Shown piece after piece: positions 9,378 to 36,410 of a DNA stretch of 37,623 nucleotides. Under the pieces are notes generated by a model. That model was not told the origin of the DNA and did no database searches. It saw only the letters and a program-made list of their open reading frames with translations. This DNA comes from Flavobacteriales bacterium (GTDB lineage Bacteria > Bacteroidota > Bacteroidia > Flavobacteriales_D > CAJJDF01), in the NCBI GenBank assembly GCA_023255335.1, contig JALRIS010000091.1, positions 1 through 37,623 on the forward strand, read 5' to 3'. The translations under genes and the position numbers were made by a program. Every line of letters begins with the position of its first letter. Position 1 is the stretch's first letter.

Positions 9378-9474
9378 TTTTAAAAAGTTTTTAGTAGTGA
9401 GTGTTCGGCCCATAGTTTATATGGAATAAAGATGCTGAAATATATTGAGCATCCCAATTATCAGTACAAAAAAA

Positions 9475-34395: not shown

Positions 34396-35550
34396 TTAAA
34401 AAAACGAAGCATTTTCTTTTGCCATTTTTCTGAGTAAGCTACTTGGTCTGTAGCGGTCTTCTCCGTAAGTTTGATACAGGTTTTCTAACAAAGAAAGTGG
34501 TTTATTGGCACCAATTTCGTCACACCAAGCCAAAAGCCCTTTGGGGTAATTGGTACCAAATCTCATAGCTAAGTCAATATCTTCTGCACTGGCAACTTGC
34601 CAAAATACGGCATCTGCCGCCTCGTTGATAAGCATTGCAAGAATCCTATCAAAAATATGACGTTTCAACTCTTCGTCTTCACTTGGTTTGGGGCGAGAGG
34701 CGTTTTCTGAATACTCATAAAATCCCTTTCCTGTTTTTCTTCCAAGCAATCCTGCTTCGGAAAAACGTTTCTGTGTAAACGAGGGTTTGTACCGCGGATC
34801 AAAGTAAAATGAGGTAAACACTGTTTCGGTCACCGTATAGTTCACATCATTCCCGATATAGTCCATCAATTCAAATGGGCCCATTCTAAATCCACCAATT
34901 TCTTTCATTGCAGCATCAATGGTGGCAAAATCAGCAATTCCCTCTTCGTATATCCTCAGTGCCTCTCCATAAAACGGACGAGCGACACGATTCACGATAA
35001 ATCCTGGAGTGTCTTTTACCAGAGCGGTTACTTTTTTCCAACTGTCAATCGTTTGCTTGGATAATTGTGTAACGGAGTGGGAGGTAGTAATGCTTGGAAT
35101 TATTTCAACAAGTTTCATGAGTGGAGCAGGATTAAAAAAGTGAATCCCGATGACTCTCTCTGGGTGTTTGCAGGCAGAGGAGATAGAGGCAATTGAAAGC
35201 GAGGAGGTATTGGATGCCAATATACACTTGTCGGACACGATGGTTTCGAGTTTAGAAAAAACGGTTTGTTTGATTTCTAAATTTTCGATGATTGCCTCGA
35301 TCACCAAGTCTGAGTTTTCCAATAACTCCATCGAATCAACAAAACTGATTCTTCCTAAAATATCGTCAGCTTCTTGTTGAGTGTATTTCTGCTTTTCTAC
35401 CAGTCTGGTAAATACTTTGTTCAAGCTTGCTCCGGCTTTTTCAATCGCGGTAGCATTTGTATCAAATACCATTACTTCTTCCCCGGCAGTTGCCGCTACT
35501 TGAGCAATTCCAGACCCCATAGATCCAGCTCCTATAATTCCTATGTTCAT
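34396..35550 (-). CDS. paaH: 3-hydroxyacyl-CoA dehydrogenase, PaaH type
   Basis: 384 residues. NAD-dependent oxidation of 3-hydroxyacyl-CoA esters, in the phenylacetate pathway 3-hydroxyadipyl-CoA. Rossmann motif GIIGAGSMGSGIAQVAA, catalytic-region IGIHFFNPAPLMKLVEII, DTPGFIVNRVARPFYGEA and GPFELMDYIGNDVN, with the second C-terminal HCDH domain (AMRFGTNYPKGLLAWCDEIG). The symbol rests on the neighbouring PaaG-type gene; other 3-hydroxyacyl-CoA substrates are possible. The gap to upstream paaG is filled by the 7-bp array. Confidence 0.88.
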   Translation of the reverse strand: MNIGIIGAGSMGSGIAQVAATAGEEVMVFDTNATAIEKAGASLNKVFTRLVEKQKYTQQEADDILGRISFVDSMELLENSDLVIEAIIENLEIKQTVFSKLETIVSDKCILASNTSSLSIASISSACKHPERVIGIHFFNPAPLMKLVEIIPSITTSHSVTQLSKQTIDSWKKVTALVKDTPGFIVNRVARPFYGEALRIYEEGIADFATIDAAMKEIGGFRMGPFELMDYIGNDVNYTVTETVFTSFYFDPRYKPSFTQKRFSEAGLLGRKTGKGFYEYSENASRPKPSEDEELKRHIFDRILAMLINEAADAVFWQVASAEDIDLAMRFGTNYPKGLLAWCDEIGANKPLSLLENLYQTYGEDRYRPSSLLRKMAKENASFF

Positions 35551-35634
35551 TTATTAAGTCGTTAGTCGTTAAGTATTGAGTCATTAGTTACAATTCCTTA
35601 GTCTAGAGACTGAGGACTGAATACTGCCGACTGT
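35551..35634. repeat. twelve-unit degenerate 7-bp tandem array, inverting midway
   Basis: The gap between the paaG stop and paaH start is twelve heptamers in one register from 35551 on. Units in the left half carry AGTC or GTCG (for example GTCGTTA at 35558 and 35565, AGTCATT at 35579, AGTCTAG at 35600). Those in the right half carry the reverse complement GACT (AGACTGA at 35607, GGACTGA at 35614, CGACTGT at 35628). The two halves can pair to an imperfect stem. Confidence 0.8.
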
Positions 35635-36410
35635 TAGTTTCCTTTAAATTCTGGTTTTCTTTTTTCCAAAAATGCTGCAATTCCTTCTTTGTTATCGTAG
35701 GTGTTAGCTGCTTCTATTTGCAATTCTTTTTCCACACCCAATTGTGTTGCCAAGTCATTGGTTAAAGCCAGGTTCAATGCTCTTTTGGTGAGGCCAATCC
35801 CCTTGGTAGGCCGTTGTGCCAGGTTCTTCGCGAACTCGAGACAAGTTGTAAATAGTTCTTCGTGTTCCACTACTTCGTAAATCATTCCAATCTCTTTGGC
35901 TTTTTCGGCCGAAAATTTATCAGCCAAAAACATGTGAGCCGCAGCTCGCTGCATCCCAATTAATCGAGGAAGAAAAAATGTACCACCACTATCTGGAACT
36001 AACCCAATACTGCTAAACGATTGTATAAAACTTGCTTTTGTACTAGCAAATGTAATGTCGCAAGCCAATGCTATGTTTGCGCCAGCTCCTGCCGCCACTC
36101 CATTTATTGCTCCAATAATTGGTTTTTCTATAGTTCTTAATTTATGAATAATAGGATTGTAAGTGGTTTCCACAATTTCTCCAATGGAGGGTCCTCCTTT
36201 GGCGGTTGCTTCTTTTAGGTCTTGTCCTGCACAAAATCCTTTTCCTTCGGCTGTCAAGATTATAGCCCGGATGGTTTCGTCTTGTTCGAATTTATCCAAG
36301 GCAGCTTGAACTTCTTTTGCCATAGGGATATGAAAACTGTTGTAAACCTCCGGACGATTGAGCGTAATTATTCCCACTCCGTCTGTGGTTTCTTTTTTGA
36401 TAAATTCCAT
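35634..36410 (-). CDS. paaG: enoyl-CoA hydratase/isomerase, PaaG type
   Basis: 258 residues. In phenylacetate degradation PaaG isomerises the ring 1,2-epoxyphenylacetyl-CoA to the oxepin. TLNRPEVYNSF, GKGFCAGQDLKE (oxyanion hole) and NGVAAGAGANIALACD are crotonase motifs. The SIGLVPDSGGTFFLPRLIG segment has Asp in PDSGG, as in PaaG, where hydratases have Glu. Upstream of paaH in the same direction. The rest of the paa cluster is not in the window. Confidence 0.88.
   Translation of the reverse strand: MEFIKKETTDGVGIITLNRPEVYNSFHIPMAKEVQAALDKFEQDETIRAIILTAEGKGFCAGQDLKEATAKGGPSIGEIVETTYNPIIHKLRTIEKPIIGAINGVAAGAGANIALACDITFASTKASFIQSFSSIGLVPDSGGTFFLPRLIGMQRAAAHMFLADKFSAEKAKEIGMIYEVVEHEELFTTCLEFAKNLAQRPTKGIGLTKRALNLALTNDLATQLGVEKELQIEAANTYDNKEGIAAFLEKRKPEFKGN

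Follow-up and report, generated by a model that had tools for sequence, protein, structure and literature searches.

An inverted heptamer array between paaG and paaH in a Flavobacteriales genome: a possible solo copy of an intervening-sequence-like element

What kind of element can take up every nucleotide between the stop codon of one operon gene and the start codon of the next? The question is raised by the paaG-paaH junction of the window, i.e. the whole stretch of 37,623 nucleotides analysed here, which corresponds to contig C158 in a draft genome of 2.23 Mb (labelled G000). On the minus strand, a paaG-like enoyl-CoA hydratase/isomerase gene (35634..36410; PF00378) lies upstream of a paaH-like 3-hydroxyacyl-CoA dehydrogenase gene (34396..35550; PF02737, PF00725), and the 83 bp from the paaG stop to the paaH start are occupied throughout by an inverted heptad array (35551..35633, minus strand, with 35551 on the side of the paaH start codon and 35633 on that of the paaG stop codon).

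Build of the paaG-paaH array

Read in the mRNA sense, the 5' arm lies directly after the paaG stop (35607..35633, minus strand; CAGTCGG CAGTATT CAGTCCT CAGTCT), a position shared with the AGT arms of other arrays, while the 3' arm runs up to the paaH ATG (35551..35606, minus strand; ACTAAGGAATTGTA ACTAATG ACTCAAT ACTTAAC GACTAAC GACTTAA), a position likewise shared with the ACT arms of other arrays. On the plus strand, AGT cores are located at 35557, 35564, 35572, 35579, 35586 and 35600, and ACT cores follow on their right at 35609, 35616, 35623 and 35630, which bears out the halfway inversion of polarity reported in a preliminary description of this DNA. The same description had heptamers filling the whole gap in one strict register; the period is real, but the register is broken by an 8-nt step from 35564 to 35572 and by a unit at 35593 devoid of a core.

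Over the 84 bp at this junction, self-identity amounts to 0.558 at period 7 and 0.457 at period 14. Shuffling upholds the period first described, as none of 20,000 dinucleotide shuffles reached 0.558, even when the best of periods 4 to 12 was taken. The junction is also the top 84-bp stretch for period-7 identity in the 37.6-kb window (runner-up, 0.494), and scoring of intergenic regions of the same genome, as initially suggested, places the gap as an outlier with a z of 6.8 in a sample of 69 gaps. Tandem Repeats Finder reports merely 2.1 copies in the array (35557-35571), i.e. the near-identical head-to-tail copies of a simple tandem repeat (LSSR) were not found there with this program.

Regarding RNA structure, the imperfect stem-loop put forward at the outset does exist as a predicted fold, but taken alone it is weak, with -17.5 kcal/mol vs. 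-14.1 +/- 2.5 for shuffles (z -1.37, not significant), and in a swap test the two arms rank 4 of 13 as each other's partner rather than best. Searches of the array for an intrinsic terminator (G+C-rich stem-loop plus T run), for a promoter match and for Rfam covariance-model matches up to E 1 returned none. No open reading frame (ORF) fits between the two arms, where a remnant of an intervening-sequence protein (IVP) gene is also absent. The word TAACTGA is absent from both strands of the array, TAACTAA being present. Of note, the GUUAGU contained in the array resembles an RRM/Musashi-type binding word. Elsewhere in the window, another gap carries a weaker AGT heptad run with four cores (9386-9416).

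Orthologous junctions and the wider array class

The paaG-paaH junction is reduced to 1 bp in the congener G001; in G003, the closest relative, it measures ~70 bp devoid of a clear array, and in G002 it extends over 101 bp, with ACT heptads confined to the stretch ahead of the start. In sister-genus genomes, a 76-bp array with AGTTT/AAACT cores (G005) and a 112-bp array of period 8 (G004, L047) are found at this place, and the spacers are mostly short in other families; an IVP gene lying exactly between paaG and paaH was seen in none of the relatives examined. This junction gains and rebuilds such arrays and conserves none, and the array is not a paa-specific element. The proposal that it regulates the paaG:paaH ratio is not supported by this comparison of orthologous junctions, the outcome of which largely speaks against a paa-specific function. 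Members of the array class lie between the stop codon of one operon gene and the start codon of the next, and turn over fast.

Arrays in this genome were counted by pattern and in retrieved stretches. With at most one mismatch, a four-heptad ACT pattern gave 66 matches and its reversed control 21; for exact matches the figures were 23 and 0, respectively, in a draft genome where arrays may break contigs. The ACT matches group into ~15 intergenic clusters, and the ACT arrays mostly lack an adjoining IVP gene. The sole non-intergenic exception seen in this genome is an ACT heptad run inside a 961-aa reading frame (L182:2478-2529, i.e. G000:C223:7477-7528). Among 105 heptads, 58 distinct words are encountered; A occupies position 5 in 80% of them, a preference that the search did not fix, as opposed to the ACT core, which was set by the pattern, and position 6 is near random. 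As the heptads vary at set positions, they are unlike the product of plain slippage and decay, and as they share only ACT and mostly A5, not a full-length sequence, they do not form a dispersed repeat of the REP/MITE type.

The order of the arms was counted in 27 gaps separating co-directional genes in G000-G005, the ORFs being called by a simple script so that gap borders carry errors. All 14 two-arm arrays show AGT then ACT and never the reverse; eight arrays have ACT alone, in most cases 6-15 nt ahead of a start, and five have AGT alone, always 4-13 nt downstream of a stop. Because an inverted array reads alike on both strands, this rule describes the build and not a direction; the candidate reading of AGT after the stop and ACT before the start as a transcription-relative signal was rejected on this very ground. 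In G039 (L254-L256), arrays are made from few words (GAGCACT, AGTCACT, GTTCACT, AGGCACT); here ACT runs precede AGT runs in at least two places, opposite to the order in G000-G005.

When the arms of 13 two-arm ACT arrays from this family, nearly all without IVP, were permuted, own-arm duplexes proved the more stable (-17.3 vs. -14.9 kcal/mol, p 0.015), and swapping the halves of solo arrays yielded a weak signal in the same direction (17.3 vs. 13.3). The RNA structure suggested in the preliminary description thus receives some support at the level of the class, to which the IVP elements described below add, but not from the lone paaG-paaH fold.

Intervening-sequence protein genes and their arms

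Heptads of the same kind as those of the paaG-paaH array flank an IVP gene of this genome located between fadB and a thiolase gene (C155:15546-15818), in the arrangement AGT arm, IVP, ACT arm (element L209/L181, G000:C155:15475-15899). The encoded protein belongs to the 23S_rRNA_IVP four-helix-bundle family (PF05635, E 7e-31), some relatives of which have solved structures (2gsc, 2rld), and this copy matches the profile only from position 16. It also scores weakly to bAvd (PF22296, E 2.8e-6, below the bAvd cut-off), the accessory variability determinant of diversity-generating retroelements.

The IVP family is present in 31 of 40 genomes searched, and the flanks of many of these IVP genes turned out to be arrays of period 7 or 8, matched on the opposite side by the reverse-complement type. 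For the collection scan, an alignment of five closer IVP sequences was used, a 15-sequence version being too diverse. Around 98 IVP genes, period-7 windows (>=0.6) occur in 33% of the upstream and 38% of the downstream gaps vs. 0.8% of 240 control gaps, and period 8 in 13% and 16%, respectively, vs. 0.4% of controls, with periods 6 and 9 at most at 3%. One or both flanks carry an array in the case of 62 of 95 IVP genes, as opposed to 2 of 51 small control genes (p 4e-14). At the level of gaps, the difference shrinks in 80 named loci (30% and 47% vs. 22%), where the controls are gaps in the same 2-kb neighbourhoods, because the neighbourhood is itself array-rich. Some elements are built from 8-mers instead of 7-mers, namely the array between paaG and paaH in G004 as well as L194, L224 and L225.

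The two arms of an element match each other. In 65 elements, aligning the upstream gap to the reverse-complemented downstream gap gave 32.5 for own arms vs. 15.0 for swapped ones (33.4 vs. 15.5 in the named set). With swaps restricted to the same genome, the values were 33.8 vs. 15.8, the own partner was the best one in 38 of 45 IVP elements, and 0 of 5000 permutations was as good as own-arm pairing. The arrays that flank IVP genes are polar, G outnumbering C in 41 of the 55 upstream arms and C outnumbering G in 47 of the 58 downstream arms, the latter trend being partly common to control gaps before start codons. Besides, both neighbours are co-directional for 142 of 167 IVP genes vs. 217 of 379 background triples.

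The gap between fadB and the thiolase gene measures 40 bp in G001 and G002, the full IVP element being present in G000, and an IVP with other arm words is found there in G004, G005, G007, G008 and G020, so that the IVP occurs at this place in at least six genomes from several families (see also L192, L194, L199, L232 and L237). Filled in at least six genomes yet empty in two congeners, it is either a recurrent site or the seat of a repeatedly lost element. Broken but recognisable IVP copies exist as well, one with six stops (G003:C38:272-559) and two partial (G003:C19:11536-11703 and G005:C137:5068-5356); to judge from these copies, the ORF of the element appears to decay in place.

A solo element and its rival explanations

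The remark that no named element has this form was fair, the nearest named thing being the rRNA intervening sequence (IVS), and some rRNA IVSs are devoid of an ORF. Degenerate heptanucleotide repeats on both arms of a hairpin are also found in the P6b stem of the Nostoc tRNA-Leu(UAA) intron, a likeness to the arrays considered here, with the difference that the Nostoc repeats reside inside a group I intron; we know of no IVP at that intron. With the 23S rRNA IVSs of Leptospira and Coxiella (PF05635), the Bacteroidota elements have in common the inverted terminal arms, the sense IVP ORF in the full form and the decay of this ORF in some copies. In Coxiella, passages of one report describe two to three GACAGAT heptamers, variable among strains, directly before the ORF of S23p, terminal inverted repeats that pair into a stem of 28 bp, which RNase III cuts, and a protein without known function (PMC4990558). 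In contrast, the Bacteroidota elements lie between protein genes of operons and their arms are arrays of degenerate 7- or 8-mers. At the paaG-paaH copy, insertion in a 23S rRNA helix does not apply since the array lies between paaG and paaH, cutting by RNase III would be by analogy, and an encoded S23p/IVP, which is optional in short IVSs, is missing, whereas the C155:15546-15818 element encodes one.

TAACTGA heptamers are described, in passages of another paper, from Beggiatoaceae, cyanobacteria and five Bacteroidetes, with a remark on their placement before start codons and the proposal of a post-transcriptional regulator (MacGregor 2015, PMC4679880). The heptamer period, the intergenic location near start codons, the mixed heptamer words and the occurrence in Bacteroidetes are all shared with the present arrays, but those repeats are presented there as direct repeats of one perfect word, a word that the paaG-paaH array lacks. 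An association with IVP does not appear in the main text of that paper; more generally, none of the open-licence papers found states the IVP-heptamer link, and the passages at hand of PMC4990558 and PMC4679880 do not join the two.

The paaG-paaH array is best explained as a solo, i.e. ORF-less, copy of a Bacteroidota IVS-like element, a reading to which a probability of about 0.5 is given. It draws on an array class with its own build, its association with IVP, its matching arms and its recent gain or loss at orthologous sites. The full element consists of a left arm, made of degenerate 7- or 8-mers and placed behind the stop codon of a gene, of an IVP/S23p gene (PF05635, four-helix bundle) in the middle and in sense with the operon, and of a right arm of the reverse-complement type before the start codon of the next gene. 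The paaG-paaH copy has the two arms and is missing the IVP gene, and may either descend from an IVP-bearing copy or stem from the same machinery; the broken IVP copies (G003:C38, G003:C19, G005:C137) make loss of the ORF plausible. Within a lineage, arms would be gained, lengthened and shortened by heptamer steps, and the maintained match of own arms suggests that they may pair in the read-through transcript. By analogy with rRNA IVSs, the stem may then be processed by an RNase III-like enzyme, and such a cut would separate the two reading frames harmlessly; alternatively, the stem may simply be tolerated because it sits between two reading frames.

An explanation without any protein is possible, if rather unlikely: generic intergenic slippage would duplicate a 7-mer, template switching would invert the copy and point mutation would blur it, IVP genes merely tolerating or attracting such spacers. 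Heptamers are indeed a favoured unit of long simple repeats in bacteria (Mrazek, as cited in part of PMC4679880), copy number differs among Coxiella strains according to the passages cited above (PMC4990558), perfect heptamer arrays are found in the relatives G023 and G008, and some genomes harbour arrays without IVP. The relic of repeated slippage evoked in the preliminary description may thus be part of the story, but units that vary at positions 4, 6 and 7 yet keep mostly A at position 5 exceed it, since slippage followed by uniform decay yields no position-specific degeneracy (A5 at 80%, position 6 near random) and leaves unexplained the association with IVP (65% vs. 4%), the sense bias and the fixed AGT-then-ACT order.

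Two further explanations assign a regulatory role to the array. As proposed for the Beggiatoaceae TAACTGA repeats, it could be an array bound by a post-transcriptional regulator that acts ahead of start codons, in line with the ACT arms mostly 6-15 nt ahead of starts and with the similar remark of MacGregor in the passages cited (PMC4679880); this is improbable, as the position before the start is not an independent signal when inverted arms abut both genes, the AGT arm after the stop is left unexplained and the arm words differ between sister genera at the same site. More improbable still is a cis-regulatory RNA setting the relative expression of paaG and paaH or the stability of their mRNA: the location exactly between stop and start within the operon and the somewhat better pairing of own arms in 13 arrays (p 0.015) would suit it, but the junction is not conserved even among congeners (a single bp in G001, G003 without a clear array), the array class recurs at many unrelated junctions, and the array has no terminator, promoter or Rfam match and a fold z of -1.4. 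Heptamer arrays before start codons in Bacteroidota should not be taken as gene-specific regulators.

Beyond the solo-copy reading of this one array, it is proposed only tentatively that IVP proteins and inverted 7/8-mer arms constitute one family in most of Bacteroidota and in other phyla, settling in sense between operon genes, and that an IVP-dependent mechanism, on RNA or single-stranded DNA, makes the arms or keeps them matched, solo arrays being made in trans. If so, the rRNA IVS would be one special landing site. The link between IVP and arrays provides the protein with a candidate substrate and the repeats with a candidate maker or binder, at a time when no cause has been assigned to the heptamers lying between genes in Bacteroidota, cyanobacteria and Beggiatoaceae.

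Across 297 Bacteroidota genomes, a five-heptad ACT array is found in 176 of the 220 with a confident IVP vs. 16 of the 77 without (OR 15, p 2e-20), figures that count related and thus non-independent genomes and, like most array counts here, sample by ACT patterns and under-count other vocabularies. Because the reversed-pattern control of this phylum search is not clean, TCA-phase heptads being arrays themselves, presence/absence and family-stratified tests were used; upon stratification the OR falls to 4.5 (p 2e-4), and part of the raw effect is therefore shared ancestry. Exceptions occur on both sides, with heptads but no detected IVP in the 16 of 77 genomes and an IVP without heptads in 44 of 220. 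Outside Bacteroidota, with the proviso that MAG labels may be wrong, periodic arms are also seen on individual MAG contigs assigned to Gastranaerophilales, Methylobacillus and Ignavibacteriales. In an Anaerolineae (Chloroflexota) MAG, AGTC heptads and GACT heptads surround an IVP (L360), with words near those of the paaG-paaH array.
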